In this document: in pieces, positions 2,171 to 63,100 of the stretch
Layout of the letters: each line of letters starts with the position of its first letter
Numbering within the stretch: the first letter of the stretch is position 1
NCBI RefSeq assembly: GCF_964204865.1
Contig: NC_135250.1
Coordinates: 24,047,395-24,111,394 of the forward strand
From: Styela clava
Lineage: Eukaryota > Chordata > Ascidiacea > Stolidobranchia > Styelidae
Direction of reading: 5' to 3'
Length of the DNA stretch: 64,000 nucleotides
Position numbers and translations under genes: made by a program
Notes under the pieces: generated by a model
What the model was told of the DNA's origin: nothing
Seen by the model: only the letters and a program-made list of their open reading frames with translations
Database searches by the model: none

Positions 2171-2225
2171 GACAGCGGTATTACTGAGAACAGTTTGACT
2201 GGAAATAGTGTAATAAGGAAAATAC

Positions 2226-5200
2226 ATGTCGTGGACGGATTCCTGTGATTGCCTAACAGTCATTTTTGGCTTGCTAGTACCGGTACTCGGCTTATGCTGG
2301 TATATTTTAAAGAGGCCGAAAAACTTTCCACCAGGGCCGTATGGACTACCTTTAGTTGGTTATGCACCGTTTTTGGAGAATAATCTTGCAGATGATTTCA
2401 TGAAAATGAAGAAAAAATATGGTTCCGTCATGTCTGTTCAAATTGGACGTAAAGACTGGGTGATACTGAATGATTTCGACACCATAAATGAGGTAAAAAG
2501 AATATTTTTACAACATAGGCCCAGTTGAAGATAGTTGTCCGTTTACCACAAAAGGGTAACGCTTTAAAAAATCTCTCAGGCTTTCATGACTATGTCACAG
2601 TACAAGTCATGTTATTGGCCTAAGGTCTTCTGGTAACTATACGCGTGTGTTATAGAAAGACGATGCGATATGCTGTCAAATTAGGTCATTCATACTGTAT
2701 GCTTTATTGAACACGAAATGCCTCCAATAATGTTACTATATTGAACAATTTTCTTCCAAGGAACACGAAATGGACCTATGGATCGTTTTGTTATTATGTT
2801 GTTGTTCTTGTCAGTAATATCTTCCTTTTCTAGTTGTTGCGAAAAAAGACTGTTTTCCTACTGGGCCAGTTGTTTTGAAATTTAACGATTTAACAATTTT
2901 TTTTTAATCTAATTTAACGATTGTTGTTGTCGCTAGAGGGCTATTACTTTTAAATTTTCAAACATTTCCGTAGGCTATATGAAATACGTTTTTCCATTCG
3001 AAGTTTTGTGTGATGACGCCATCAAAATAAAAATATTGCGCACCATGTGGCGGTTCCACGATCGCAGCGATCTGTTGGTTAGGTCAAGTATGAAAGTCTA
3101 CGGTCTTGATGCTGCAAAAGATTTGATGTTACATCGTTTTAGCGTTCGTGTCCATATTTATTGAAGCATTACTCTCATGTTTTTATAGGATGCTGATCAT
3201 CTATGGGGAAACTTAAATCTGTAAAATCTCCGCCAAATGTTGCTATATTTAACAATTTTCTTTCAAGGCATTTTTGAAGCAAGGAGAAGCGTTTTCAGGT
3301 CGACCGAATAACTTTTTCTTAAAATAATCGCACAAGGACGAGGTGTTGTCGCAAGAGATTATGGGCCGGGAGTGAAAATCTTACGAAAATTTGGACTAAT
3401 GACTCTGCGAGGGTAAATATGTAATTAAATATTCAACAGTGAAACAAAATGTATAGCCGAACACAGGCGTGCATTGGTTCGTTTTTTTATATCAGTAATC
3501 GCTGAATATATATGAAGAATTTTATATCGTGTTTCGATTTCAGGTTCAGCTCGGATTCCTAGCCTCGGTTTTTAAATGAACAAGATTCAAGTTATCATTT
3601 CATACAAACCAAATGATCATACGCTTTCAAAATTAATTAAACTGTTTTGATTGGATGAGCTTTCTTGACCCTATGAAACTGGAAATTAGTTTCATATTGG
3701 ATTGTGGCACAAACCTGTTCCCCGTAGGAAAACGATGTTTCGTAATTTGCATTTAATGAAGAATATTTTGGACCTTATCTGTCTTAGTTTTATTTCGCAA
3801 AAATACAAATGCTACAAATTTATTGTGTTTTCATTTCTCCCTTCAGATTTGGTGTCGGAAAGAAAGGAATGGAAAGAAATGTGGTTGAAGAAACTGAATT
3901 GTTGGTAGAAAGTCTGACTTCGAAAAACAATAATAGCCTGCATGTATGTAAATGACTCATTTTTTATTGTTCACGTTGGTTGCATGTCTTACCCATCTTT
4001 TCCTACCGAGTCAAACTTTCAGTTTACCTATTGTTGGACACGAAATGGGCCTATGGATCGTTTAGTTATTGTGTTGTTGTTGGCGGTATTTATTTTTTTG
4101 TTGTTCTGTGAAAAACTTCCGTACCAATTGCTTTGAATTTCCAGTGGTTTAAAATTTTATTTGTTACTAGAGGGCTATTAGTTTCATTCATTTCAAATTT
4201 CTGTGGATCCTATGGGATTCGGTCTTCACTTGTAAATATTGTCTAGTGACGTCATTAAAATAACTTGTCATGTGCGATGCCATCATCGCCACAGGAGCTG
4301 GGAAATCAAAGCCAGTTCGTGTATCGGTACAGGAACTGCTAAATTGCGGTAGCTGTTACACAGTTCCAACTTCGTTCGTTCGATTTTTTGGGGAACTTCT
4401 GCGTAAAATGTTTCGTTTTGGTCGTCGTTTCCATATATTTGAGCATTGCTATCCTTTTTGTTGTTCAGAGTAAAATTACTTTGGCTGTATCTAACATCAT
4501 TTGTCGAATTGTATTCGGATCAAGATTTGAATATGAAGACAAGAAGTTTCACCGTATGCTGGAAATTTTAGCAATGTTGTAAGTTTAACCGTTATTGACT
4601 TCCCATCATATTTTAATGCATTGTAACTATTTGACCAAATCAGGGCAGCAGAGTTTTATATATATGTGTTTTTCTAATAAAAAAATCGGAGATATATTCG
4701 CAATTACAAAGTCTTCGGAGTCGTAATTTGAGAGTCGGAGTTTCAATTTCAGACTTTTATTGGCGAAAAGTCGTAACTTCCGACATAAAATCCAAAACCA
4801 TTAGGTTCACTCAGTATTCCAATCGCAAACGTTTTTGCTATCAAAATTTAATTTTTACGGATTTTTGAGATGCAGTCGAAAGTCAGAATTTTTGTCGAAG
4901 TCGTTTGCTTCTAGTTTGGAGTCGTAGCGAACTGCGTCGTCGCAAAATTCACGTATTCCGGCTCACATAATAACCCTTTACGGGATTTGAACCTGCAAAT
5001 TCAAACAGTGTAACAACCATTGGGGCAATAGCTAATAATTACAAGCTTGTTGCCAACATTCAACTCAGCATCTTCCATTAGTAACTCGTATTCAGTAGAT
5101 TGAAAAATATTGATCTGATTTCCCATAAATGTGGTTTTGTGTTTTTCAATTATCAATTTTCCAGCTTTGCGAACACATCCGACGCTAAAATGTTAGCTGT

Positions 5201-8200
5201 GATGTCAATCCCTCCCATACTCCGATTTATACCACCGTTTCGTGGAGCATTGAAGCGTGCTATGGATGGCGTCGATGAACTTACAGGTGATATATATTGC
5301 TAGTATTGAGTTTTTATTTATTTATACCGACTTATTATCATATATATAATTCAGTTATAATCCGAAACCAGAGTTTCCCAACTCACCTGCTGAAGGGTCA
5401 CAAACAAATTTGGATGTGGTCCGCTTTAGGAAAGCGAGCCTACGTTTACCGAACACTTCTATGATGGTTGATGGAATGCATATTTCTAGTTGAAAATTCA
5501 CTGTTCAACACGTAGTGACGCAACATTGGAGTTGAAGTACACTTCGTACACCTGTTGTGTTGGTATGGGTGACTAAAAATCGGAACCCATAAATTTCTCA
5601 ATTCTATGAAACTGAAGATAATTTATAAAATAAAATTTTCTTGTCAACTTCTGTTTGTGTATGTTGCTGAAAGTTTTAGTAATCAAGAATGCTTCTTAAA
5701 AAAGTTTTGTTCTGTCTGAAACGTTTTCCAAATCGGCGCTGAGGACAGTTGTGCACCCATTGCGCCAAATTTTTACGATAATCGACGGTAAGTTTTAGTC
5801 GATGGTTCGGGACCTCTTTTTGAGTAAACATACATGAAATACTATTCTATAAGTACTACACATGTATTCATCAATTGACTCGTTGTAAATATCAAATTTT
5901 CAGCTCTTTAGGTAAATATGCATAAAATACTGTTACAGGATATATACGTGAAATCATCGAAGAACACAAATCGAGCTTTGATGAAAATGATATTCGAGAT
6001 TTTATTGACGCTTTTCTCAAAGAAATGAGGTCAAGAGATAGGAATGACCCAAATTTTAATGTAAGTGTAGTACTCCGGCATATTTATAAGGAATATTGTC
6101 AATGATTCTAAAAATTTTAATCTTGTATTCTTGGGTAAGATAAATATTTTAAATATATATTGAATGGTATTTTGCCTATATTTCCAAATAATAAAAATTC
6201 TCTTTTTTAACGTAACCATTTACTTTTTTCACTCTCAAAGCCATTCAAAGATACTCATCCGTTACAAAAAATTTTTTTACTTGTCAGTAAAAGTAAAACT
6301 AAATTCTACTGCACGGTTAATCTCAAATAGATGATGTCGTATTTTCTAATACATTCTTTTTTTTTTCAATAGTTTTCGAAAATGTGTCTTTTGAACCTGA
6401 GCTATCATAAAATGTAGTATTTTGTACACTGACCTTGAAGATAATTGAATATACGAAAGGATTAATGCTGGGGTTAACGATATTTTTTGATATCTTGATT
6501 TTTGGTCATTTTAAAACGTTTATTATCAGAATATCCAGCTAATCCAATATATCCGGGATTTATTCGAAGCTGGAACGGGAACAACAACGAATACTTTACG
6601 TTGGGCAATTTTGTGCTTTGCCAATTATCCAGAATACCAAGAAAAAATTGCAAAGGAGATTGAGAACGTTTTGGGTGAGATTAATGGTCGTAAAGCACCG
6701 AATCTGTATATAGAATGGGTGTATTAGAAAATGTAACTTTGTTTATTACTGTATATAAGCAGCCAATGCGCACTCCATTTCTCGGTGATATAAGATAGGA
6801 TTTTCATTTTCTTTCGTGGGGGAACCAACGGACATCTCTGTAAATTGTAAAAATGAGAACCTCGGTGGTTACCAGTCTATGTCGAGTAACAGTTACACAG
6901 GTATTTGTTTCCAATATGAACCTCTTGCAGAGGAAGCCGTAGCCGGTCGATGTTCACGTTAATCACCCTATGCTTGCGCGTACTCATCCCTCGTGGAATT
7001 CGAACTTGCGAAACCCCGCAGGACAATTAGAAATTAGGGATAGGACTAGTCCGGCATTACAGAGATTCGACGAATCCGAGTAATAGGTCAAGGACTCGAA
7101 TCGAATCTGCCGAGTCCGTGACGTCATAATGGAAACGCAGAAAAACGTGTTTTTGACCATGCTACAGCATCGTGCGCTCACAAACATACGTCGTAGCTCA
7201 TATTTTTTGCCTAATGATTCGGCAGATAGCTGTTGAATCATTTTAAATATATAATTTTTCTCTTTTTGGCGGCCATAATACAAACGTAAAGGTGGGTCAA
7301 TGTGCGCCTTGGCTGTGAACTGGATTTTCAGCCCACCTTGCGTCAATTCTGGGCGGCTATTCAGAAATTCTTACATGTCAATATGAACAATAAAAAGCTT
7401 TCGACTACAATGCTTTCCCATAATTCCAGATATTTCTAACCGTAAATTTACTATGTCATGTGCGCATATGGTAGAGAAATGCCACTCGTCGTCAATACAA
7501 TGTGGTACATCTGCTTGCAATTTAGTAGATCATGTAAACGTTCTAAAACTCTCCATGCTTTCCATTGCCATTTTAGCGAAAGGATTGCACGCAATAAACT
7601 TGATTTAAGAAGTATTGATGAGATTGTGGATCCAGAGCATGTTCCATTTTTACGCGAATCAAAAACTCAAAAATATTGCAATAACACATATTTTATTGTG
7701 TACCACGTGTATACCAAAAAGAATAGATAGTTTGAAGGCGACTGGCGCAACATCATTGTTATAAGCGATCAATAGTTTTTAACTTGCCTCTTATATTATC
7801 TAGATATCTGTCGTCGTTTTATTAGGAGTGTTTATAATGCACACGATGCACAGGTACATGTAGTGGGATTTCTAGAGGCAAAAGTACAAACATAGGCGTA
7901 AATTAGTAAAAACAGAATTGATTATGGACTCGGTAAAAATGACGTGGACTCGAAATCGCATCGAGTCCAAAAAATGCGTGGATTCGACTCGAATCCGAGT
8001 CCGGATCCGAATCCCGGCCCATCCCTGTTAGAAATGCGTTAACAAATGCGCCAACCGCTTACTATAATTTTTTTTTTGTCCAAGCCGGAAAGAATATTTA
8101 CAAATTATCACGATTTGCGGTAGATTGACAAACCAAGTCAGCAAATTGTATAGAAATATTCAACTATATAATATATGTATATCAGAAAATACATCAGGTA

Positions 8201-9502
8201 TATATATATATCGGTATATATACCATTGCATAATGTCAAATAATATATAGAATTCATTATTGTACTGTTCGTATTGTATTTACCCTTTGATCTATCCATT
8301 AGGAGAAGATGGAATTCCGTCCATGAAGCACAGAGATGATATGCCGTACACTTGTGCATTTATACAAGAACTTATGCGACATCGAACTCTGATACCTTTG
8401 AGTGTATTTCATAAAACAAACGAGGATGCGACGTTAAAAGGTTATAATATCCCTAAAAATACAACGGTGAGTTTCGTTAATGATTTACGTTAAAGCTAGT
8501 GTTTTAGTCGAACACAATTCGACAGGAAGATATGTGATCAGGTCTTTTTCATGCCTTGCATGTGCAATCAATGTAAACAAATTCAGTACTGGTGCGGTAA
8601 TTCTCGTATGTGCGGTAATTTGTGTATCAACTCCGAGGCAACATAGAACTGTTTGTTTTCATCTTGTTGGACACCAAGTGGACTTATGGATCGTTTTTTA
8701 TTATGTTGTTGGTATTCTTGATATTTTTAGCTTTTCTTCTTATTGTTATTGTTGTTTAGAAAAATTAGCCTGTCTCTAGAGGACTATTACTTTTATTTTT
8801 TAAACATTTTTTGGAGCTCTATCTATGGGATTCATTTTGCATCTACACGTTTTGTGTAATGACGTAGCATATCAATTTTTTCACTCACCACGCCAATTAA
8901 AAATACTCATCGGTTTTTGAACAAATTTTTTCTTTGTCTGTATTAGAAAAACTAATTTTTATTGCATGGTCAATCTCAAATAGGTAGTGCCTTTTTTTTA
9001 ATAAATTCCTTTTTTTAAACAATTGAGCATAACAAATTGCGCGATCGGGTGGTCTGCTATGTCGCGAGTTTTTGTTACGGAAGACTGGTGCTGTAAAGAT
9101 TTGATACTACTTCTATTTTGCCTCATAGTCCATAAATTCAAGCATTGCTCTCTTGTATACATGTAATTCCGATTTTGTGTTTAGGTATGTTCGAACATTT
9201 GGTCAGTTCATTTTGACCCTTGTCAATTTGAAAATCCGAGAGAATTTCGTCCCGAGAGATTTCTCGACCGTGACGGAAAATTCAACAAATCAAATCACGT
9301 GATACCATTTTCCATCGGCCCTCGACATTGCCTGGGGGAACAACTGGCAAGGATGGAGGTGTTTATATTTTTAACAGGAATTGTTCAGAAACTAAGAGTT
9401 GCACGCAAACCTAACGAGACCCTCCCGCCTTTTGATGTTGGTGTGTTCAAAGTTATAACGTACAAAGCCCAAGATTTTGAGGTGAATTTTGAAAAACGCT
9501 AA
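2226..9502 (+). CDS. Cytochrome P450, CYP2-family-like, nine exons, one apparent frameshift
   Basis: Microsomal haem-thiolate monooxygenase of the CYP2 clan. Exons: 2226-2492, 3268-3412, 3847-3943, 4469-4578, 5165-5286, 5939-6060, 6530-6674, 8303-8466, 9185-9502; the nine-exon plan is that of vertebrate CYP2 genes. The predicted product is about 496 residues, the normal family size. Residues 1-30 form a hydrophobic signal anchor, followed by the proline-rich hinge (NFPPGPYGLPLVGY). The ExxR motif is E359-L-M-R362, the PERF motif is at 414-417, and the haem loop FSIGPRHCLG puts the cysteine ligand at 440. All exon phases join except inside exon 2, where the frame breaks by one base near 3313-3322. 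The C-helix WxxxR tryptophan is Val (residue 125 after allowing for the break) and the I-helix AGxETT acid is Gly305. Substrate unknown. It may be a recent pseudogene, or the break may be a homopolymer sequencing error; the rest of the gene has no stop. Confidence 0.88.
2730..2760 (+). repeat. Direct repeat of the exon 2 splice-acceptor segment
   Basis: These 31 bases match 3237-3267, the tract and AG that precede P450 exon 2, with three differences by eye. The pair brackets a copy of dispersed repeat A. The upstream copy is a potential decoy acceptor in intron 1. Confidence 0.55.
2761..3180 (+). repeat. Dispersed repeat family A, copy 1
   Basis: Shares, in the same order, blocks with 4034-4455, 8665-9165 and 27945-28225: acacgaaatggnccta-tggatcgtttt, a gttgttgtt stretch, ctagagggctatta, a gtgtgatgacgccatcaaaat block and a final tcgtttt..cgtgtccatatatt..agcattgct end. 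No coding capacity. Lies in P450 intron 1. Confidence 0.6.
4034..4455 (+). repeat. Dispersed repeat family A, copy 2
   Basis: Same block order as copy 1, ending about 14 bases before P450 exon 4. The open frames over this stretch are incidental. Confidence 0.6.
4983..5034 (-). repeat. tRNA-derived SINE head (box A and box B), minus strand
   Basis: On the minus strand, 4993-4983 reads GGTTCAAATCC, an exact box B (GGTTCRANTCC), and 5034-5017 reads TAGCTATTGCCCCAATGG, a box A-like stretch at a fitting distance. There is no fold into a full cloverleaf that I trust and no clear acceptor stem. A SINE head is therefore more likely than a working tRNA. The full extent of the element is unclear. Confidence 0.35.
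6228..6372 (+). repeat. Dispersed repeat family D, copy 1
   Basis: The run from tcactctcaaagcc through ctactgcacggttaatctcaaatag matches 8880-9022 in order with scattered differences. Non-coding. Lies in P450 intron 6. Confidence 0.45.
6940..7026 (-). repeat. tRNA-derived SINE, box B side, split by a hAT insertion
   Basis: Minus strand 7006-6995 reads AGTTCGAATTCC, close to box B. With the 993-bp element at 7035-8027 and one target copy removed, this joins to a head at 8060-8041 that reads AAGCGGTTGGCGCATTTGTT, box A-like. The whole looks like one tRNA-derived SINE interrupted later. The 3' body runs leftward for an unknown length. Confidence 0.4.
7035..8027. mobile_element. hAT-like non-autonomous element, 993 bp, with 8-bp target duplication
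   Basis: The element is flanked by TTAGAAAT at 7027-7034 and 8028-8035. Its ends are imperfect inverted repeats: left tagggataggac, right ggcccatccctg (reverse complement cagggatgggcc). An 8-bp duplication with CAGGGAT-type ends fits the hAT superfamily. Internal stretches carry repeated gactcg/gaatccgag motifs. The open frames at 7458-7730 (+) and 6984-7346 (-) show no transposase motif I recognise. It sits in P450 intron 7, inside an older SINE. Confidence 0.75.
8665..9165 (+). repeat. Dispersed repeat family A, copy 3, with a family D copy inside
   Basis: Begins with ttggacaccaagtggacttatggatcg and ends with aagcattgctctcttg, matching copies 1 and 2. The middle (about 8880-9022) is instead a copy of repeat D, so it appears to be a nested insertion. 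Lies in P450 intron 8, just before exon 9. Confidence 0.5.
8880..9022 (+). repeat. Dispersed repeat family D, copy 2
   Basis: Matches 6228-6372, with blocks aaatactcatccg/tcgg, a run of T, and gcatggtcaatctcaaatag shared in order. Confidence 0.45.
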
Positions 9503-26544: not shown

Positions 26545-44091
<17,547 letters not shown>

Positions 44092-48380: not shown

Positions 48381-49533
48381 TGGGTTTCATAATAATACTT
48401 ATCTAGTGATTTTTTCCATCTTTAAGTATTAACAATTTTATATCCGTTGCCCATTAGTTGAAATGATACATTTGTTTCAACAACAACAACAAAAATTTAG
48501 CAAAACATTTCACATGTTCACATCGTGTGCAACAAGGTTTTTCTGCAGTTGTCCTTTTGTTTTTGTGCCCATTTGGTGTAAAACAAATCCGTTGTACATT
48601 TTACCGCTTAGCGGTTTTACCCTATTTTTATCTCAATGTACGTTGTATTTAGACGCACATTAATCCATAAAATATGGTTATTCCAACCTAGTCAAATTTG
48701 ACCGACAAAACTTAATTCGATTCTGCCACACCAGTCAGAACTTATATATATATGATATAACACACCGTATTAAATATCCAAAATAAAAAAATAAAAAAAA
48801 TACTGGCCTGTGCCACAAATCCCAAGCTTTACCATGTAAAATGCTTTGAATACAAATTAATTCATACCCGAATAGTCTTATGAAAATACCAATATTAATC
48901 GAAACTCTAGCTCGTTTACGAGTAAATCAAACAATTCTGAAATCCATAGATACAAACTTAACAATCTTGCCGATTATGCAAAAATCTTTGGCGCTATCTA
49001 CCGATTAGCTCAAATATTGAATTCACAACGCTTTCCGGCACGGTGCAACTTAAACTTCTCGCTGCGAAAACCTTTAGATATCTTTTTAGGAAGAAACATG
49101 CTTGCTTTGCATTGAGTTTTTAGTATATGTATCTGACGCAAAGTAGGTAATACGAACTCAAAGTTGAATAAATAAATCTGTATTTTTCATCAATAGCTGA
49201 AATTTTAAATAGTTACTAGTATAAGCCCGATAACAAACTCTTCATGCACCGGCCGCAGCCAGCGGGCCTTTATTTGCCGACTCTTGAATTCGATTATTCT
49301 TTAATGGAGTGACAATAAGCAGATAACAAACCTAATAAATGATGAAATCGGGGAAATAATTTCAAGCGCACCAAACGACTCATAGACTGCACCACAAAAT
49401 TTTGACTATGTATATAATCATCCTCATCATCAACTCTATTCTGTCCAAAATTGTTATTTTTAGCCAAGTCGTTTCAGCCAGTTTCATATCTAACTGATGT
49501 CTAGCTCATGACATAAACCAGTATTCAGTATTT

Positions 49534-49707
49534 GGCGCTTCTGAAGTTTGTGTGTACCAATATGGAGTTAACTAATTTTGTTCGCCTACTTTACATCAAG
49601 TTGTGTGAGGGGACTGAAACAATCTCGAACTCGTACTAGAACTGAAATAGGGAAAATCGGGATAAAGTTATATGACCCAACCTTAACATGGTACACACAC
49701 TAAGGAG
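49534..49707. mobile_element. MITE family C, copy 3 (in unit 1)
   Basis: Starts ggcgcttctgaagt, shares ttttgttcgcctactttacatc with the other copies and ends acacactaaggag. It has lost about 30 bases of the middle (after gggactgaaac) relative to copy 4. Confidence 0.65.
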
Positions 49708-50100
49708 AATACACATTATTTCACATGGCAACTATTCAAATAAACCCATAAGAATTATTTGAACTCTGCTGAAAATGTATGTATTCAATCAATTCGTAAT
49801 TTTAACAATGTTATTTTAAATTTTCAGACTGAAAAAGACAACGGGCACATTTACAAAGCATTTCATACATAAAACACAGTAAGTACGCTGAATTATCCGG
49901 TATCATCAACCTACGCGAAAAATGTTGTTAATTATTATAAAATACATAAACTTCGTACTCCCAATCGAACGTAAAAATGGTTTACTTTTTGGAAACTTGG
50001 AACACAAAATATAAGATTATTATTAGAAGTCCTGATATAGTTTTGAAAAGTGGAAATAATCAACTATTAAAATGAAGTTTCATATTTTAACAGTGAGGCA

Positions 50101-50106
50101 TTTATT
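50101..50106 (-). terminator. Candidate poly(A) signal of peptide gene 1
   Basis: AATAAA on the minus strand, about 135 bases after the stop codon. A matching hexamer occurs at 54053-54058 in unit 2; the same place in unit 3 reads AGTAAA. Confidence 0.4.
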
Positions 50107-50240
50107 ATACAAAATCAGTGATTAAATTTTTACTGAATGAAAAGGCTATTTCAGAGCTTCATGAAATATATTTAGTCTGTTCTATGTTAGAAAAATAATA
50201 AATTCAGAACTGAATAGATATTTTAAGAAGACATGTTGCT

Positions 50241-50913
50241 TCATTCGAACCAATCAGTCTCTTTGTTGTTATCAATGATATCGTCGTTCTCCGGATATCC
50301 TGCCGAAATATATGAAAAGGTTTTGTTTACCTATTGCATTTACTCAAAACTTTTATTTATGTATTGAAATTTATTAATAATAGTAGAATTCGTAACACAC
50401 ATGTGTATTGGTAAGATATTCCATATGTCCTTTTCATAACACAAAAAAGCCGCAATAATCATATTTTAATATGTTCATTATCTTACCTAGTAACGGGAGA
50501 AACGTTTTCGGCCATCTTCTGGATCTTCGAAATGTAGTGTGCTTCTCAATTTTTCCGGGTATCTGATCACCACAACTATGAACAGTAATAAAATTTTACA
50601 TTTTAGTATTAATTTAATTCTAATCAATAGTGCTTATAATCGATTTCGATAATTATATAAACAAAAAAATGGAATATTATTATAAAATATTGAGATGCTT
50701 CCCTTTTAATAATTTCAATACCGAAATAAGTAATTGGTATCCTAATTCGAAACGTCTGGTTCCAAACGACCATGTGTAGAGACGTCTGGAAGTCTCGATT
50801 CTAAATACGAAATTTGTAACAAAATTTGATAAAAGGAAAACTCACTCTGCCCTTGTTCCTGTGCATCCAATCACCAGAATTACAAATAGACATGCAACAA
50901 TTTTCAAGTTCAT
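50241..50913 (-). CDS. Small secreted peptide precursor, array member 1 (71 aa)
   Basis: Family not recognised. Exons 50913-50846, 50575-50487, 50299-50241, with clean GT..AG introns and phases that join (68+89+59 = 72 codons). Residues 1-22 are a signal peptide (MNLKIVACLFVILVIGCTG, cleavage likely after T-R-A). The mature part opens D-C-G-D-Q-I-P-G and continues with a basic stretch holding RRSRRWPK, then a hydrophobic FLPLL. The third exon is acidic (GYPENDDIIDNN...). There is one cysteine after the signal, so a disulphide dimer is possible. The core has a net positive charge by count, unlike members 2 and 3. Arg-Arg pairs could be cleaved by a prohormone convertase. Layout (signal, variable core, acidic tail) is like ascidian antimicrobial precursors; a peptide hormone or a recognition ligand are alternatives. 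Confidence 0.8.
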
Positions 50914-51643
50914 TTTTTGAGATTCGATTTTGTGATTAGAATTTACTAAGTAAACTGTTAAAACCAAATCAATTTGTTATATTAGAATATTTGGTTTCCA
51001 CCTGGGGTTCCACAGTACAGTACAGGGGTTCACCAAATTACCATTTGAATCCGAGAGTCTATGTTAATATAAGAATATTTATTTTTTGTTACAATTATAT
51101 ATATACTTATTACTTGCCACTATAATTTTAATCTTGCTACACAATAAAGTTATTTTTTTTTAGTATCAAGTTTTTTTTTGTTTATATATATTGTTAGTTT
51201 ATAAAATCTAGATATATACAAATATTTTCGACGATTTTTTATCAATCACAAACTCTTTAAAAAAAAATAAACTAATTCCAACTTTTAGGTCTCAATCTAG
51301 CATTTTTATGCTTTGACTAAGCATATACCAGGCCGGGTGTCTAAAAAGTCGGCTTTTTGTTCAGAACTGTCACCAAGCTCAGAGTGTCGATAACTACTGA
51401 TTTACGTCGTCTGCGATCACAATATATATATGTTTAATTTTAGAAAATGTAAAAAGAATTTAGTTCATTTTTCATGCTTAAAAAAATGCATTGAAAGAAT
51501 CGGAAGTAGGCGCTAAATTTTTCAATACTTTTGTATACAAAATACACCATTTCCACAATTCGTGTATACAGTCAAAATACTTTACCCATTTCTATGAACT
51601 AATGATTCAATAGATCTAGATCGTTGCGTTCTAAATTTCTATA

Positions 51644-51769
51644 GTGATTTTCCTACTGTTTCCTGCAAACCCAAAACAAAATGAAAGTTTGAATAAAGCT
51701 TTTGTGAAAAGGGAAATGGAAGTGGAAATTACACATTACGGGCCAAACATTCATCAGGATAACGATGCA
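51644..51769 (+). other. Conserved open segment in unit 1, + strand, coding-like
   Basis: Preceded by TATAG, it reads open for 42 codons with LFPANPKQNESLNKAF and later EVEITHYGPNIHQ. The unit 2 copy (55565-55687) reads the same frame with changes that are partly at third positions (ACA/ACT, TAC/TAT, GGG/GGA). The unit 3 copy has two stops. I do not recognise the protein. It may be an exon of another gene caught up in the duplication, now decaying. Confidence 0.35.
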
Positions 51770-53478
51770 AAAAATTCGAAATATTTATCTTTCATTATTA
51801 TTAGTAGTATTTATTCTCAATACTTTTTAACAAATTATCTTGTGAAATTATAAAAATATAAATATGAAAAAAATATATTAGATCTTCAATTCCTTCCCAT
51901 TGGCACCTAGAATAAACGTTTCTTTTATGTTGGTTATTTTAGCATTCTGTAGACATAATATAGAATTTTTCTAATTGATTTTGGTAAATATATATTTATC
52001 ACATTGAAATGTTGTGTAACTTTAATGGCGCTTTTTGTCAATACTCCACAAACTGCGAAGCTATGCTCAGTACAGCGTCCTAAACCTCGATTTGAAAGAC
52101 GAATCGACTCACAAGGCATCTAATTCGTCACTCGAGTTTGAGTTTCACCAAATTTTCAATAAATATGGATATACTCGGTTTCATAATATTAGGAAAACAA
52201 ATAGTATGTTTCTAATAATATTTTCCATTTTCAGGTATTAAAACTTTGATATCTGTTAGCCCATTAGCTGAAATAAGGCATTTTTCTAACAACATATCAA
52301 AAACAACTGTAACATTCAATATGTTTCCACCGTGTGGAAATAATGTTTTTTTGTTGTATTTGTCTTTTGGTTTTATGTCCATTTGGTGTAAAACAAATCC
52401 AGAAAACCTTTTTCCCGCTTGGCGGTGTTTCTCTGTTTCCACCCTATTGTAAGATGTATTTATACATGTAGAAGCACATAAATCTACGAAATATGGTTAA
52501 ATTTGGTCAAATACCTCGTTAAATTTGTCCGACCATGTCAAATTTGACTCGAGTCTGGCACACTAGTCTGAACTTACGGTATATGAAATAACAAAAGAAA
52601 GAAAAAGAATCTCTGACCTGTGCCACAAATCCCGAACTGTACCGTGTAAAATGATTTGAATACCAATCAACTCAAAACTTTTGCTCTTTTACAAGTAAAT
52701 CTAACAAGTTTTCGACAATAAAACGACAAACCGTGTGTAATTAAATTTTCAAGTATATTTTTTCAAAGACGGAATGACTTTTTTGAATTTTGGTAAGTAA
52801 TAATAAAAATCAGTAGATTAAGTCATCTCAACTTGTATCTAAGATATTCATTTAGTGATGAAAGTCGTACAATTGTAGCATTTCGAACACAACTTGTAAT
52901 GTTTTATTGTTCAGCAAGCATGACAAAAATCTTTGGCGGTCACCAGCGATCAGCTAAAACATTGAATTCACTCCGCTTTCCTGCGAAGTGCAACTAAAAT
53001 TTCTATCTGCAAAAAACCTCATTCTTTTTTTGTCAGGAAGAAACATGCTTGCTTTTGAGAATATGTGTTTGACATAATGTAGTAAATTCGAATTCAAAAT
53101 ATTTAAATAAATATATCTGTACTTTTTATCAATCATTAAATTTTAAATAGTTGTTAGTGTAAGCCCGATAACAAACTCTTCATGCACCGGCAGCGGCCAG
53201 AGGGCCTGTACTTGCCGACCCTTGAATTCGATCATTATTCAATGGAGTGGCAATAAGTAGATAACAAACCTAATAAATGATGAAATCGGGGAAATAATTT
53301 CAAGCGCACGAAATGACTCATAGACTGCACCACAAAATTTGGACTATGTATATAATCATCCTCATCATCAACTCTATTCTGTCCATATTTTTTTTTATTT
53401 TTCAGCCAAGTAGTTTTAGCCACTCTTATAACAAAGAGATGTCTAACTCATGACATCCACATACACCAGTCAGTATTT

Positions 53479-53686
53479 GGCGCTTCTGAATTGTGTGTAT
53501 CAATATTGAAGTAATTCATTTTGTTCGCCTACTTTACATCAAGTTGTGCAAAGGGACTGAAATCTATTGGCAGGGGGTGTATTCATTTGGTTAACACATA
53601 CAGAACTCGTAGTAGAACTAAAATAAGGAAAATCGGAATAAAATCATATGACCTAACCCAAACCTGGTACACACACTGCGGAAATA
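53479..53686. mobile_element. MITE family C, copy 4 (in unit 2)
   Basis: Occupies the same place in the unit as copy 3 (after cagtattt, before tatttcacgtggcaac), so it was duplicated with the unit. Ends acacactgcggaaatac. Confidence 0.65.
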
Positions 53687-54193
53687 CCCATTATTTCACG
53701 TGGCAACTATTCAAATAAACCCATAAGAAATAATCGAACTCTGCTGAAAAAGTGTATGTATTCAATCAATTCGTGATTTTAACAATGTTTGTTCAAATTT
53801 TCAAACTGAAAAAGAAAACTGGCACAAATACAAAGCATTTCATACATAAAACACAGTAAGTACGCTGAATTATCCGGTATCATCAACCTACGCGAAAAAT
53901 GTTGTTATTAATTATTTCAAAATACATAAACTTCGTACTCCCAATCGAACGTAAATATGGTTTACTTTTTTGAAACTTAGAACACAAAATATAAGGTTAT
54001 TATTAGAAGCCCTGAAATAGCTTTGAAACCTGGAACTGGACTAATTTAGTCATTTATTATAGAAAATCAGTGATTTAGTTTTTACCGGATGAAAAGGCTA
54101 TTTCAGAGCTTCATAAAAGTTTATTTAGTTTGTTTCATGCCCAAAAAATAATGAATTCAGAACTGAATAGATATTTGATTAAGACCTGTTACT

Positions 54194-54945
54194 TCATTCT
54201 AATAAATCAGCCTCGTCGATGTTATCAATGATATCGTCGTTCTCCGGATATCCTGCCAAAATATATGCAAACTTTTTGTTTTCTCAACACTTTTACTTTT
54301 ATTGATATAATGAAAAATATTATCAATAGTAAAATTCGTAACACACATAAATTTGATGTTATATCCCATATTATTTTTCTATAACACAAGTAAATTTTTG
54401 AAACTATCTTTTTTTAATATGTTCATTCTCCCACCTGACAATCGGATATCCGGCGACCAGGGTTTATTTCTTTTATATGTAGTGTCCTTCATACTTTCTC
54501 CGGGTATCTGATCACAACTATGAACAGTATAAAAAGTGTTACTAGCAAACAAATATTTACATTTTAGTAATAAGTTAATCCGATTTTCGAGTTTTGTACC
54601 CTCTGTGCTTCAAAAGAATTTATTCATTTTATCTACAAACTTTCAATTTCATCCTAATCAAAAATGCTTTTAATCGATTTGGAAAATTGTAATAATTAAA
54701 AATTGAATAATATTAAATAATAATGAAATGCTTCATTCCCACTAATTTAAATAACGAAATAAATAATTGGTATTTTATGACGAAGCGTCTGGTTCAAAAC
54801 GACCATGTGTAGGGACGTCTTGAAGTCCCGATTCTTCATTCGAAATTTGCAATAAAAGTCAAAAAGAAAAAACTCACTCTGCCCTTATTCTTGCGCACCC
54901 AATCACCAGAAGTACAAATAGACATTCACCAATTTTCAGATTCAT
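54194..54945 (-). CDS. Small secreted peptide precursor, array member 2 (69 aa)
   Basis: Paralogue of the genes on either side. Exons 54945-54878, 54517-54435, 54252-54194 (68+83+59 = 70 codons). The signal peptide MNLKIGECLFVLLVIGCARIRA carries V-A to G-E at residues 6-7 and is a little weaker than in the other two. The mature part opens D-C-D-Q-I-P-G, lacking the Gly of member 1 by an exact 3-base deletion, then ESMKDTTYKRNKPW and SPDIRLS. The acidic tail GYPENDDIIDNIDEADLLE is almost that of member 3. A single Lys-Arg pair lies mid-core. A possible poly(A) signal is at 54058-54053. Reading frame and splice sites are intact. Confidence 0.78.
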
Positions 54946-55564
54946 TATTTGAGATTCGATTTTTTGATTAGCACTTACTGTTAAAATCAAATTAATCTGT
55001 TATATTGAAATATTTCAAAATATATAGGCCGGTGGTGTCCAACTGGGGTTCCGGAGTACAGTACAGAGGTTCGCAAAATTTTCATTGAAATCCGAGAAGC
55101 TATATTGATATATGTATAAATATAATTAAATACTTATCAATTTTGCCGGTATAATTTTAAACTTGCTACCCTTTAAAATTTTTTTTTTTTTAACTTGGGT
55201 TTTTAGGTGTCAATTTAGCATTTTTATGCTTTGACTATATACCAAGACCGGTTTCTAAAAAGTCGGCTTTTTGTTCAGAACTGTCATCAAGCTCTGGACG
55301 TCGCTGACAACTGATTTACGTCGTCTGCGATCACAATATATATATGTGTAATTTTCAAAAATGTGAAATATGTCCGTTTTCTTCAATGTTCTGCATAAAA
55401 AAATGCATTGAATGAATTGGAAGTAGGCGCTAAATTTCCGAATACTTTTGTATACAAAATACACCATTTTCACAATTCGTGTATACAGTCAAAATACTTT
55501 ACCCATTTCTTATAAACTAATGATTCAATAGACCTAAGTTAATGCGTTTCAAATTTCTATAGGG

Positions 55565-55687
55565 ATTTTCATACTGTTTCCTGCAAACCCAAAACAAAAT
55601 GAATGTTTGAATAAAGCTTTTGTGAAAAGGGAAATGGAAGTGGAAATTACTCATTATGGACCAAACATTTATCAGGAAAACGATGCA
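55565..55687 (+). other. Conserved open segment in unit 2, + strand, coding-like
   Basis: Counterpart of 51644-51769 in the same frame, again after TATAG, reading ILFPANPKQNECLNKAF and EITHYGPNIYQENDA. No stop within it. Not recognised. Confidence 0.35.
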
Positions 55688-57559
55688 AAATTTTCAAATT
55701 TGAAAATAATAAATTGAAATATTTATCTTTCATTATTGCTAATAGTATTTATTCTCAATACTTTTCCACAAATTACATTGAAATTATTAATAAATATGAA
55801 AATAATATTAAATCTTTACTTGACACCAAGTTGCGACCCAAAATAAACGTTTCTTGTATGATGACTATTTTTACAATTCTGTACAAATAATATGGAATTT
55901 TTTTGAATGATAAATATTCTTTACATTGAAATATTGTGTAACTTTAATGGCGCTTTTTTGCCAAAACAAGCTATCAAACAAGCTGCAAAGCTATGCTCAG
56001 TAAAGCTTACTAAATCTCGACTTGATGGACGAATCGAGTCACAAGGCATCTCAGTCGTCACTCGAGTCTGAGTTTCACCAAATTTTTAATAAATATGGAT
56101 ATATTTGGTTTCATAATATTAGGAAAATGAATAGTTGTTTTCTAATAATTTTTTCCATTTTTATGTATTGAAATTGGTTATCTGTTGGACCAATAGTTGA
56201 AATGAGGCATTTTTTTCCAAAAACATATCTAAAATTGAGCAAAACATTTAATATGTTTCCACCGTGTGGAAATAATGTTTTTTTGTATTTGTCCTCTTGT
56301 TTTTATGCCTATTTTGTGCAAAACAAACAAACGAACCCAGAAAACAGTTTTCACGGCCTGGGGTGTTTCTCTATTTTTACTCTATTGCAGGGTGTATTTA
56401 GACACGACATAATAAAAAACCAAAAGAAGAATAAAAATCACTGACATGTGCCACAAATCCCAAGTTGGACGGCGTGAGAAGCTTTAAATACGAATCAACC
56501 TATACCCGAACTGACCTTTGAAATTATCGTTATTTAGCTGGACTTTGGCTCATTTACAAGTATATCAAATAAGTTTTTGACAGCAAAACGACAAACCGTG
56601 TGTTCTTGAATTTCAGAACTTTAGTGAATATTTTTCCAAACAGTGAATGACTTGAGTGTTGGTTAGGTAATATTGAAAATGAGGTCAACTTATATCCGTG
56701 CTATTTCTTAAGTGACGATAGTTGCTAGTATAAGCACGATGACAAACTCTTTATGCACCGGCAGCGGGTCTGTATTTACCGACTCTTGAATTCGACTATT
56801 CTTAATTTGAGTGACAATAGGTAGGAAACGCACCCAATGAATAATACCATCGGGGAAACTGTTAGCGCATGAAACGACTCACCAACTGCATCACATTACC
56901 AAATTTTGACTATACATATGATCTTCCTCATCATGAACTCTATTATGTCCATTATTGTAAATTATAGACCATGGTTTTTGGCCAAGTAGCTGTGGCCAAT
57001 TTTATATCTAACTGATGTATAAAACATCAAATTCACACAAACCAGTGTTCAGTATTTCATATGGCAACTATCTAAATAAACCCAAAAAGATTAATTGAAC
57101 TCTACTCAAAATGTATGTATTTGATCAAGTCATCATATTAACAACATTCAAACCGAAAAAGCACATATACAGAGCACATTTCATACATAAGCACAGTAAA
57201 TACTCCAAATTATCCGATATCATCAACATATCCTAAAAATGTTGTTAATTATTTTAAAATAAATATGCTTCGTATACTCCCAATCGAACGTAAAAATGGT
57301 TTACTTTTCGGAAACTTTGAACACAAAATATAAGATTATTATTAGAAGCCCTGAAATAGCTTTGAAAACTGGAATTAATCAATTATATAACGTTTTAAAT
57401 TTTAACAGTGAAGCATTTACTATAGAAAATCAGTGATTTAATTTTTACTGGATACAAAGGCTATTTCAGAGCTTCATAAGAATATATTTAGTTTGTTCTA
57501 TGTTCGAAAAATAATAAATTCAGAACTAAATAGATATTTCATTAAGACAGGTTGCTTCA

Positions 57560-58325
57560 TTAAAATAAATCAGCCTCGTCGTTGTTATCAATGATATCGT
57601 CGTTCTCCGGATATTCTGCCAAAATATAGGCAAGTGATTTGTTTGCTTATTACATTTACTCAAAACTTTTATTTATGTATTGAAATTTAATATTATTAGT
57701 AGAATTCGTATCACACATGTGTATTTGTATTATATTCCTTATGGTTTTTCTATAACACAACTAAATTTCAAAATCCATAATTTTTTTAATAAGTATATAT
57801 TTCATTCTCCTACCTAGCCAATGGAGAGACTGCGTCGTCCATTTTATGGGATTTTGATATGTAGTGTCCTTCTTAGTTTCTCCTGGTATCTGATCACAAC
57901 TATGAACGGTATAAAAATGTCATAAAAATTTTACATTCAGTAAATAAACTTACATTTTAATAATAAAAGAACTCGGGTACCAGCTTTGCTCAATTTGCCA
58001 TTTTGTCCACTAACTTTAAATTTAATCTTAATCAAGAATGCTTATGAACGATTTTGAAAATTTCAATATTTAAAACTTTAATATTAGTGTAAAATAATGA
58101 AATGCTTCATATTCACTAATTTCAATAACAAAATAAGTAATTAATTCGGCATCTTAGGCCGAAACGTATGGTTCCAAACGACCTTGTGTAGAGACGTCTG
58201 GAAGTCCCGATTCAGCATTCGGAATTTGTAACAAAATTTGATTAAAGAAAAACTCACTCTGCCCTTATTCCCGTGCATCCAATCACCAGAAGTACAAATA
58301 GACATGCAACAATTTTCAGGTTCAT
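57560..58325 (-). CDS. Small secreted peptide precursor, array member 3 (69 aa)
   Basis: Exons 58325-58258, 57899-57814, 57615-57560 (68+86+56 = 70 codons). Signal peptide MNLKIVACLFVLLVIGCTGIRA. The mature part opens D-C-D-Q-I-P-G like member 2, continues ETKKDTTYQNPIKW, then TTQSLHWL, and ends in the acidic tail EYPENDDIIDNNDEADLF. The stop is two codons' worth earlier than in member 1. Net charge of the core is near neutral, so the strongly basic character of member 1 is not shared. Only the Asp-Cys start, an ACTACAT-encoded TT(Y/F) and one Trp are held through the variable part of exon 2. Function unknown. Confidence 0.8.
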
Positions 58326-59089
58326 TTTTTGAAATTCGATTTTGTGATTAGGATTTACTATAAGTAAACTGTTGAAATCAAATTGATCTGTTATCTTTGA
58401 ATATTTTAGAATACATAGACCAGTGGTTTCTAACTGGGGTTCCAAAAAAAGTTCTGCAAATTTTCTTCCAAATCCTAGAGTATATATTAATACAATATAT
58501 TATTTATTATAATTATATATATACTTATTACCTGCCCCTATAATTTTAAACTTGCGACACAATAAAGTTATTTATTTTTCCGTATTAAGTTTGTTTTATA
58601 TACATACGATATATTGATAGTTTATACAATTTAGATACAATAATTTTCACAGCGTCAACGACTTTTTTATCAATCACAAACTTTTTTCAAAATAATATAT
58701 TAATTCCGACTTTTAGGTTATAATCTAGCATTTTTAGGCTTTGACTAAGCATTTACCAAGCCGGTGTATAAAAAGTCGGCTTTTTGTTCAGAAATGTCAC
58801 TAAGCTCAGAATGTCATTGGCAACTGATTTACGTCGCCTGCGATCACAATATATATATAAATATGTGTAATTTTCAAAAAAATTGAAATAAGTTCATTTT
58901 CTGCAATGTTTTAATTAAATAAAAAAAAAAAACATGCACTGAATAAATCGGTAACTGACGCTAAATTTTTGAATACTTTCACAAAAACACCATTTCCACA
59001 ATTCGTGTATACAGTCAGAATACTTTACCCATTTCCATGAACTAATGATTGAATAGACCTAGATCGTTGCATTCTAAATTTTTATAGTG

Positions 59090-59200
59090 ATTTTATAACT
59101 GTTTCCTGCAAACCCCAAATAAAATGAAAGTTTGAATAAAGCTTTTGTGAAAAAGGAAATGGAAGTGGAAATTGCTCATTACGGCCCAAACATTCGTCAG
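59090..59200 (+). pseudogene. Decayed copy of the coding-like segment in unit 3
   Basis: Counterpart of 51644-51769. Two in-frame stops (TTATAA near 59095 and CAA to TAA in the PK-Q-NE stretch) close the frame. The EIAHYGPNIRQ end is retained. Confidence 0.35.
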
Positions 59201-59563
59201 GTCAGAGTTTTTAAATTGAAAATTGATTCGAAATATTTATCCTTCATTATTATTAGTAGTATTTATTCACAATACTTTTCACAAATTACCTTTAAATTAT
59301 GAAAATAGAGTTGTAAAAAAAGTATCAGATCTTTATTACCCAGTTGGCACCTAAAATGAACGTTTCTTGCATGATGGCTACTTTACTATTACTCATAATG
59401 TGGGATTTTTTTGATTGATATTTTGGTACATAAATATGCATTACATGTTTTTTGTGTAACTTTAATGCTACTATTTTGTCCATACAAGCTATCAAACAAG
59501 CTGCAAAGCTATGCTTGGTACAGCTTCATAAACCTCGATTTGATGGACGAATCGACTCACAAG

Positions 59564-60090
59564 AAGGGATGTAAGTTTCGAATATTTTATTTTCGAATCG
59601 AATTTCGAATCAGAACGCTCCGATTCGAATAATTCCGGATCTGATTCTATTTAATATTTCCTAAAGCCTAGAAGAATTTATTTTAAATATGAGTAATAAT
59701 GACAAACTATAAATATGGATGCAATGAAGTGTTAATAGATATATATATCATATTTTGCTAAACTAAATAATGTCCACATATTAGTAAAAATATCTAAAAA
59801 TTTCAAATAGTAAAAAAATTAGGCAAAACCGTAGGTGCCTTTATAGCTGTGACTCTTAAACCAAGGTTTATTACGATTTTGGAAATCGGTATCCTCGATG
59901 TACAAAATCGGAGAACCACTTAATCGGTGTTGTAACAACGCCTCTCCGTCATTCCATTGCTTCATATTATAGTGATTAATACTATTTTTTAAATAGAATC
60001 ACGCCTTATTTTCTAAAATTGCTTCGAATCGATTCAAATTGACGTTAATTCGAATTGCTTAGATTCGAAATTCTAAAAGCTACATCCCTT
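59564..60090. mobile_element. hAT-like MITE, 527 bp, with 8-bp target duplication, in unit 3
   Basis: CTCACAAG stands at 59556-59563 and 60091-60098; units 1 and 2 have a single copy at the matching site (gactcacaaggcatc), giving a true empty site. Ends AAGGGATGTA and TACATCCCTT are an exact 10-bp inverted repeat, followed by ttcgaa-rich subterminal sequence on both sides. No coding capacity. Confidence 0.9.
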
Positions 60091-60142
60091 CTCACAAGGC
60101 ATCTCAGTCGTCACTCGAGTCTGAGTTTCACCAAATTTTCAA

Positions 60143-63100
60143 TAAAAATAGATCGGCACAGATAAAGTTATCTTCGCTATCGTTTCGAGTGATAGGTCAC
60201 GTTAGATTTGATTTTATTCGCTTTTACCAATCGAACGAAATAATCAAACATCTTTATTATGTATGAGCTTAACAGGGAATAGTAAACGTAAGAGAAAAAC
60301 AAACAGAAAAACTGGTAAAAATTGTCTCAGCACAGAATTCGGGTTCTAAACTTCTGTTGTCTTATTCTGGTGGTAATCTAGTTTTTGTTTTACGTACATC
60401 CCCATCATTTTATCGTACTCATCACATTCTTGGATTACACGCATAGGGCAGAGAAAATAAGATTGGTAAAATTGTTACTAAATAGCTTTTTGATAAAAGA
60501 AAACACTTGAAGAGGTAAACTTTGTTTCTATTTACATTTTTAATACATCGAAAATCAAATCCTTTATTTTCAGTCTGATTTACATATTTTAGTCACTTTC
60601 ACTAGTTTATCTAATGTTAATGGGAATTTTAATGACAATGTTGCATTTTCATGCCACGATAACCGCAAGTAGGCAGGAAATTAATCATAGTTCATCATGA
60701 TCGCCGCGTAGCAATTTATATGAACTATGTAAAAACAGAAACACACTGGGCTTTCCACTTCCGCTCTGAAAATAGTTTCATAACAATTCCCTATCTTATG
60801 TTACATGCATGGCACGGTGATTGAGCTATATGAACGTTTTTATTACCAAGTGGTTTTTAGAGGTTTCAACTTTTGGTTTGATTCTGAGATTCTGGCAAAA
60901 AAATCTATTATCAATTGAGTTGAGTTAATAATATCACAGTTGTATTTATGTCTTCCTTGATGCTTAATATTAAATCCTCGCTAATTCACACTTTGAATAA
61001 TGAAGTAGGCTAAATTTGAAGAAAACCTTCACATTGCAATGTAACAATTTATCAATGCCACGACGAGCGTATTCTCTCGTTTGATTATACTTGCGCTTGC
61101 CTCGCGACGAAGACTTGTTTATTGCACCGTTTTTAACATTATTCGACTTTACTACCTAGTCAGCATTTTATAATAATTATTGATGCCGATTTATTGACGT
61201 TATTCCGATTACCATGCTTCATTTTACATTAAATCATTTCGCGGCCTAAATGTTGTAACATTATTTGCGACAAATTTAGATCAAATATTAATTATTTGCG
61301 CATAATTTAAATACCGTACTTATATGACATGGCTTTTCCGAAAATACAAAGTTATATCGCAAAAAAATGCATATTGTGACATTTATTTTGCACTCACGAA
61401 AAAATTAACTTATATTTCTAACTCAAGTCGACGATCCTAACGGCCAAGACTGACACAAATTTGGTCGAGTGTCGGTGGTATTCAAGAATCTAAATAAGTT
61501 GCCGCATTTGGTGAAGACAGTTAATCATATTTAGCCGAAATATTGCGAGGCATTGTGGAAAATATATTGAGCAAGGACAAGTCCGGACTGATGTGTAGCT
61601 AACGGCGTGACTAACTTTACTGATTTAATTCCCCGCATTCTCAGTGCATTTTTTGAGGGAGAGGGGGGGGGGGGGGGGTTCTATCGGTTCTAGAGATACA
61701 ATCGTAAATTTATACATTAGCGGACGCCGAAAACTACCCATAGCCCTGCATTAATATCTCGCGCTCAAGATGACGAGAGGAAACCCTTCTACACTAGATC
61801 GACAGTAACTTGTCAATACATCAAATTAATCTAAAAAATGCACCCATTCATTTGTTGTCGTGGCATCGAAATACCAACCCAAATACAAATAAATTTTGAA
61901 ATGATGTTACTTTTTTTTAATTTTTGTTGCATCCAAATTATTGGAAAAAAATAAAAATACCCTTGTATCTAAGTATGCAAGTATATGGGTTGTAAATTTT
62001 AAGTGAGCTCCACGCATACCTAAATCCTGATTCAACTGAATAATAAGAAAAAAAAGTAAAAAGTTTGCGATATTCTGGAACGTTGAGACGAAATGCTTTT
62101 TATTGTTGGTTGACTCATTCAAAAGATTTGTTAACGTCGACTTCCTTTGCTAGTTCGTAGAAAATATCTGGACAATAATAAATTGATTTTAATAAATTCC
62201 AATATAAAAGATATTAACAAATTTTCAAATGATGATTTGTATTATGTATGTTTGTATTACTAAATATATCTTGAAACTAAAATTTTGATATTTTACAAAT
62301 GCAGAAGCCAATCACATATTATAGTATTATTCTCATTTCCTACCAGCGATGCTTTCCATATCCGGATTCCATGTGCGAGGTGGTTTATTTTCCGCTCTTG
62401 AGTTTACGTATTGATAAGCTCTGTGAAAGAGGCAAAGTTGAATGCAAGATAAAATTGTATAAAAAATACGAGATGTTTTGAAAAAAATTTGTTACTATGA
62501 TTTAACGACGTTTTCTCATCCAATCATATTAGTAACCATCACGATAATAAAATTTGGGAGTATGATACAGATTATTCAAGAAGGAGTATTGATCAGTTGA
62601 TTCCCAAGTGGGAAATAGTTTCAGAAATATGATGTTTTTGTGGTTAATTTGCAAGCTGTCTGACAGGTTGAAATATTTCATTTTCACAAGTTTTAACCCT
62701 TTTACTAAAAGTCGCAGGGCGCGCCGTCATTTAGATAAGTGGAATGGGTTAAAATAGCTCTTCGTAATCGTTATTTCATTCAAAAAGATTTAGTGTCAGT
62801 CAGATTTCATCCTAGAAAGACAATTTACATTCTACAAAGCAATACTTATTTGTGTTGTGTGGGTGAACATCCTATTGCAAGCAAATCAATCAGGGTGACA
62901 AAATAAGTCTATTTTTATTGTCAAAATTTTATATTGTTCCATCCAAAGTCATAATGTATGCTCATGTTTGAAGTCAATAAACGTCAGCAGCCATCATTAG
63001 GACTGGACATTTCGAATCGAATATTGAATAATAAATTATTCGAATCCGTTTGAACAAAAATTTAAAATTGCCGCCATCTTGTTTTCTTATTTTACCGACA

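Follow-up and report, generated by a model that had tools for sequence, protein, structure and literature searches.

A tandem trio of orphan genes for small precursors, predicted to be secreted, in the ascidian Styela clava

Small secreted peptides of ascidians and the Styela clava trio

Styela clava has been described as the source of the clavanins and the styelins. The genome considered here encodes clavanin C exactly, and a search with the clavanin A core identified two places on C1, neither of them in the window (the whole stretch of 64,000 nucleotides that was analysed). In two clavanin genes of this genome (L036 and L037), the signal is encoded by exon 1, exon 2 has a length of 20 nt, and core and tail lie together in exon 3. 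A 20-residue partial styelin sequence containing X (PMC8719109), which is too poor a query to be decisive, gave no match. Among the peptides of other ascidians, the linear cationic peptides of Ciona (MAM-A, PAP-A and the candidates of Table 1 in that work) are made from secreted precursors of 50-100 residues, in many of which a cationic segment is followed by an anionic one. They were chosen for the absence of cysteine and the presence of a cationic amphipathic helix, in a screen that excluded cysteine-containing peptides (PMC7387483). Halocidin and dicynthaurin from Halocynthia are described as alpha-helical dimers from haemocytes, with one cysteine per chain. CiEMa of Ciona is presented as a 14-residue amidated haemocyte peptide from an orphan precursor, with an unusual cleavage at a glycine that is followed by a region of acidic residues (PMC10888236).

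The genes discussed here form a trio on the minus strand, at about 48.4-60.1 kb of the window. Like the two clavanin genes, they have three exons and encode short, putatively secreted precursors with the signal in exon 1 and an acidic C-terminal tail after a glycine (in the trio, in U1 and U2 only), their intron phases are 2 and then 1, and clavanin, too, has at least two copies on one chromosome. In contrast to clavanin, where core and tail share exon 3, the trio has a separate core exon. The clavanin core is rich in histidine and phenylalanine and lacks cysteine, whereas the trio core has one cysteine and is followed by a different tail. The possibility that the trio genes are clavanin paralogues was therefore rejected on sequence and exon content, despite the agreement of the intron phases. 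The Ciona linear cationic peptides share the size and layout of the precursor, but all three trio precursors contain cysteine, and only one of the three cores is of the cationic amphipathic type. With halocidin and dicynthaurin, the trio has in common the small size, the ascidian origin and the one cysteine per chain; this is a likeness of description, and dimers of the trio peptides are hypothetical. CiEMa is also derived from an orphan ascidian secreted precursor; as described in the available text, it has 14 residues and no cysteine, and no motif in common with the trio is apparent by eye.

Architecture and coding status of the array

The combination of blastn searches and a three-way unit alignment resolves three direct tandem units, each with one intact three-exon gene on the minus strand: U1 (48391..52200), U2 (52200..56130) and U3 (56130..60150), all limits being approximate. 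Blocks shared between units are spaced by 3.3-4.1 kb, start to start. The array is best explained by the triplication, in tandem, of a single intact orphan gene of Styela clava, which encodes a small precursor predicted to be secreted. A first-pass annotation of the DNA had already proposed an ascidian origin and a three-member array of intact genes with frames and splice sites kept throughout, and the unit alignment, exon models and frames agree with it. The end that it gave to the array, on the U3 side, takes in a 527-bp transposon-like insertion, which is also included in the U3 limits above. Over the next 30 kb rightwards, only four short matches to the units were found (30-56 bp). The window also contains a CYP2 gene, with S. 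clava as its best match, and has no tRNAs and no Rfam matches at the gathering score.

In U1, exon 1 (50846..50913, 68 nt) encodes the predicted signal peptide and is followed by a phase 2 intron, exon 2 (50487..50575, 89 nt) encodes the core and is followed by a phase 1 intron, and exon 3 (50241..50299, 59 nt) encodes the acidic tail and the stop. According to the exon models and the enumeration described below, the corresponding minus-strand exons are 54878..54945 (68 nt), 54435..54517 (83 nt) and 54194..54252 (59 nt) in U2, and 58258..58325 (68 nt), 57814..57899 (86 nt) and 57560..57615 (56 nt) in U3. All six donors are GT and all six acceptors AG. The precursors have 71 (U1), 69 (U2) and 69 (U3) residues, within the 69-71 expected from the first reading of the sequence. 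The predicted layout of signal, core and acidic tail also stands: exon 1 encodes a hydrophobic start in every copy, as judged by hydropathy alone, the core exon consists of D-C-(G)-D-Q-I-P-G and a variable stretch, and YPENDDIIDN is identical in all three tails. A single cysteine is present in the predicted mature part of each copy, as had been claimed.

The family had been called unrecognisable, and this description holds. No homologues of the precursors were found in a protein database that includes S. clava proteins, none of the three precursors matched a Pfam or NCBIfam family at E values up to 10, no PDB sequence matched, and four short peptide strings of the family had no match in the literature searched. 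A known larger protein containing the frames, which would have contradicted the first reading, was looked for and is rejected, as there was no Pfam, NCBIfam, PDB or homologous-protein match. A larger family elsewhere in the 376.6-Mb genome is likewise rejected: searches with U1, U3 and 1.5 kb of U3 DNA gave no copy outside the window, and one match on C17 had an E value of 1.0.

Without relatives, the frames could in principle be chance frames in a repeated non-coding segment, or belong to decaying copies. The failure of the searches to provide a protein or transcript-derived relative would fit, as would the lack of a third-position bias in exons 1 and 3 in the three-copy alignment, and several non-coding blocks of the units are more conserved than these two exons, whose variability is only a little below that of non-coding columns (P 0.027 and 0.048). 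Nevertheless, this explanation is highly improbable. When three-exon models with a hydrophobic start were enumerated, on condition that every unit retained the ATG, the splice sites and the frame, one model was obtained on the gene strand, and none on the other strand or in either of two control orientations. Neutral evolution was simulated with the rates of the introns, leaving out gaps of at least 60 nt (4000 runs for each of three starting sequences). The frame survived in every copy in 0, 1 and 1 runs, and in none when the splice sites were also required. The gaps in exon 2 are all of 3 nt, whereas 3 of the 22 pairwise intron gaps are divisible by three. The trio genes are thus very probably real and coding.

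Uneven divergence of signal, core and tail

The later part of the core changes faster than the introns, whereas signal and tail do not. For the three pairs of copies, intron K is 0.31, 0.24 and 0.27. The signal has dN values of 0.13, 0.04 and 0.09, and the tail of 0.14, 0.12 and 0.07. For core residues 31-52, dN is 0.65, 0.49 and 0.54, in excess of intron K with P 0.007, 0.032 and 0.016, for pairs that share copies and for a variable part with limits set after the alignment was seen. Exon 2 as a whole shows no excess of dN over intron K (P 0.13-0.26). In the variable part, dS (0.75) exceeds dN for the U1-U2 pair. This part has 59 aligned columns, of which 7 differ in all three copies, a number reached by none of 2079 non-coding windows. 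By total variable columns, it is equalled by 29 of the 2079, and the list of windows by variability is headed by two non-coding ones. A relaxed core would give a partly similar pattern.

Possible roles of the peptides

It had been suggested that the trio encodes antimicrobial precursors or, alternatively, a peptide hormone or recognition ligand. In the first case, the core, once freed of the acidic tail and amidated, would disrupt membranes. The layout does fit, with tail charges of -6, -8 and -7, a glycine in front of the tail in U1 and U2, and acidic propieces having been described for such precursors; the species being the source of clavanins and styelins also speaks for it. However, core charges of +4, 0 and -2 for U1, U2 and U3, together with maximal helical moments of 0.57, 0.26 and 0.32, mean that U1 alone is similar to a cationic amphipathic peptide, its moment being inside the 0.53-0.74 range of five ascidian yardsticks. 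The objection of low charge is countered by clavanin A, which itself reaches only +1 when counted in this way. Each core also has two to three prolines, U3 has glutamate instead of glycine before the tail, the cysteine is of the kind that the Ciona screen left out (PMC7387483), and the exon content differs from that of the clavanin genes. Cationic antimicrobial precursors are therefore a partly supported but unlikely explanation, and an acidic tail alone is not sufficient to call a precursor antimicrobial.

A hormone or neuropeptide precursor, with cleavage at a dibasic pair and amidation at the glycine before the tail, is very unlikely. Such processing would suit U1 and U2, which have RR and KR in the same aligned columns as well as the glycine, and CiEMa, as described, provides a precedent for an amidated peptide from an orphan precursor cut at glycine (PMC10888236). 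It would not suit U3, which has QN in these columns and no glycine. Moreover, conservation in the precursor alignment is lowest in the stretch that follows the pair, which hormones usually conserve.

In the reading that we consider best, the trio is a family of secreted peptides that is restricted to its lineage and has a diversifying core, and a role in defence or recognition is a tentative suggestion with slightly less than even chances. The precursor would enter the secretory pathway, with the signal cut between A and D. The acidic exon 3 tail may be a conserved propiece, or may be retained in the mature peptide, and two chains may be linked through the single cysteine. The partner of the variable core may itself be changing, whether it is a microbe, a symbiont or a polymorphic component of the host, and if so, the copies would be divergent versions of a peptide for defence or recognition. 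More specifically, though this is quite unlikely, the trio may represent a Styela-specific system, in which constant signal and acidic-tail exons surround one hypervariable core exon, one cysteine allows homo- or heterodimers, and a few tandem genes supply a small defence or recognition repertoire under diversifying selection.

Short secreted orphan genes are easily overlooked by annotation and homology searches. Comparison of the three paralogues shows which parts are constant and which are variable, and thus points to residues that are worth testing. If expressed, the trio would be a further, previously unrecognised family of the species where the clavanins and styelins were discovered.

Three tandem gene models and the case against chance

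Between 48.0 and 61.5 kb the minus strand of the window was read, and repeats were mapped. The three-way alignment delimits three tandem units, U1 (~48.39-52.2 kb), U2 (approximately 52.2-56.1 kb) and U3 (approximately 56.1-60.15 kb), which blastn and this alignment show to be mutually alignable along most of their length. Each contains one gene of three exons, and the precursors read have 71 (U1), 69 (U2) and 69 (U3) residues, in agreement with the three-exon genes for 69-71-residue precursors claimed in the first-pass annotation. Identity to the U1 precursor is 62% for U2 and 68% for U3. Intron 1 is in phase 2, and its position likely coincides with the signal cleavage site (between A and D); intron 2 is in phase 1 and separates core from tail.

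Gene models were enumerated over the three-way alignment. A model had to open with an ATG and a hydrophobic start, use GT[AG] at both donors and AG at both acceptors, each acceptor preceded by 12 bases of which 6 or more are pyrimidines, and keep a similar length and the same frame across copies. The gene strand yielded one conserved model, the opposite strand none, and the reversed and complement-only controls none either. In neutral simulations at intron rates, 4000 runs from each of three starting sequences left the frame intact in all copies 0, 1 and 1 times, and never when splice sites were also required. The earlier claim that frame and splice sites are kept in all three copies thus stands, with a sole enumerated model and a neutral expectation of at most 1 in 4000. 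All four pairwise gaps in exon 2 are 3 nt long, and 3 of the 22 intron gaps are divisible by three. Judged from sequence, this looks like a real trio of secreted-peptide genes in Styela clava.

Unequal change along the genes and units

Intron divergence K is 0.31 (U1-U2), 0.24 (U1-U3) and 0.27 (U2-U3). Against these values, and in the same order of pairs, dN is 0.13, 0.04 and 0.09 in the signal; in the tail it is 0.14, 0.12 and 0.07. The DC(G)DQIPG motif differs by one codon indel, its amino acids being otherwise unchanged. For core residues 31-52, dN exceeds intron K in all pairs (0.65, 0.49 and 0.54; P 0.007, 0.032 and 0.016), in tests whose pairs have copies in common and whose limits were chosen after the alignment had been seen. 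For U1-U2, dS in these residues (0.75) is higher still than dN, and for the whole of exon 2 there is no significant excess of dN over intron K (P 0.13-0.26). Columns that differ in all three copies number 7 of 59 in the variable part versus 40 of 2311 in non-coding sequence, and none of 2079 non-coding windows of 59 columns has at least 7. The count of variable columns is matched by 29 of these 2079, and the two most variable windows are non-coding. The core of the precursors appears to be diversifying.

Third-position bias is absent from exons 1 and 3, and both vary more than several of the non-coding blocks. The longest run identical in the three copies (32 nt) lies within exon 3 and encodes the tail motif YPENDDIIDN. 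A non-coding block at 51540-51758, with counterparts in U2 and U3, lies 0.6-0.85 kb upstream of the ATG. Some windows in it are only 6.7% variable among the units, below the exons, and it is a possible candidate promoter or enhancer.

U1 and U2 share sites in three stretches (near 49.0-49.9 kb, around 51.6 kb and at about 52.0-52.2 kb), U1 and U3 around the gene (50.0-51.2 kb), and U2 and U3 at the low end of the unit. Because the pairing switches along the unit, sequence exchange between copies is suggested. U3 also carries a 527-bp insertion (59564-60090; 59556-60098 with flanks) that is absent from the equivalent sites of U1 and U2 in the alignment. The insertion is flanked on both sides by the 8-mer CTCACAAG, and its termini are inverted (AAGGGATGTA...TACATCCCTT). 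We take it to resemble a non-autonomous hAT-type element.

Relatives and neighbours

In a protein database that includes S. clava proteins, neither U1 alone (one candidate) nor the three-sequence alignment (513 candidates) gave a match at E up to 1, and the precursors matched nothing in Pfam, NCBIfam or PDB; distant relatives could escape, because these searches and those of the genome are word-based and only the best candidates are scored. The family, which the first reading could not place, was not placed by profile or sequence searches either. In the 376.6-Mb genome, U1 found 7 matches, all inside the window, and U3 found 9, namely 8 in the window and one on another contig (E 1.0). A 1.5-kb U3 DNA query gave 17 matches, 4 of them in the three units and 13 elsewhere, on eight contigs (68-84% identity). 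The 13 all fall on query bases 58-251, an interspersed repeat (58450-58643) that lies 125-318 bp before the start codon of U3. The trio is apparently restricted to its lineage.

Neither flank has a gene that accounts for the array. To the left are a minus-strand exon with a ZSWIM4-8 C-terminal domain (26953-27261) and a plus-strand CYP2-type gene (2217-9502), whose best database match is an S. clava protein and whose exons are 94-97% identical to the best among the tblastn matches listed. The 30 kb to the right of the window (L008-L010) contain another CYP (P450) gene and exons matching core-2/I-branching enzyme, with two of the four matches passing the Pfam cut-off.

Possible roles of the peptides

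A clavanin A search gave two matches on the contig of the window, where clavanin genes lie near 10.57 Mb (L036) and 10.54 Mb (L037). The L037 product is exactly clavanin C as printed in PMC8719109. With the CYP2 match, this is taken to mark the genome as that of Styela clava. The clavanin genes resemble the trio in their intron phases (2 and 1) but differ in exon contents: they have exons of 47 nt (signal) and 20 nt, and the last exon holds core and tail together.

Core charges are +4 (U1), 0 (U2) and -2 (U3), with tails of -6, -8 and -7; clavanin A is +1 by the same count. The core helical moment is 0.57, 0.26 and 0.32, respectively, and five ascidian yardstick peptides, clavanin A among them, span 0.53-0.74. 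A possible amide-donor Gly is present in U1 and U2 and missing from U3. A dibasic pair stands in matching alignment columns of U1 (RR) and U2 (KR), where U3 has QN. Therefore, the ascidian antimicrobial layout that had been proposed is present, but its chemistry (charge and moment) is found in one of the three copies. The suggested fit to a peptide hormone is likewise partial, since the Gly and the dibasic columns give hormone-like processing signs in two of the three copies, but not in U3. Linked single-Cys peptides are described in Halocynthia, and because of this, Cys-mediated pairing of the trio peptides would be possible by analogy.

A hormone role is thus possible for two copies, and an antimicrobial role plausible for U1. 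Among the roles considered for the trio peptides, defence or recognition ranks first and appears the likeliest.
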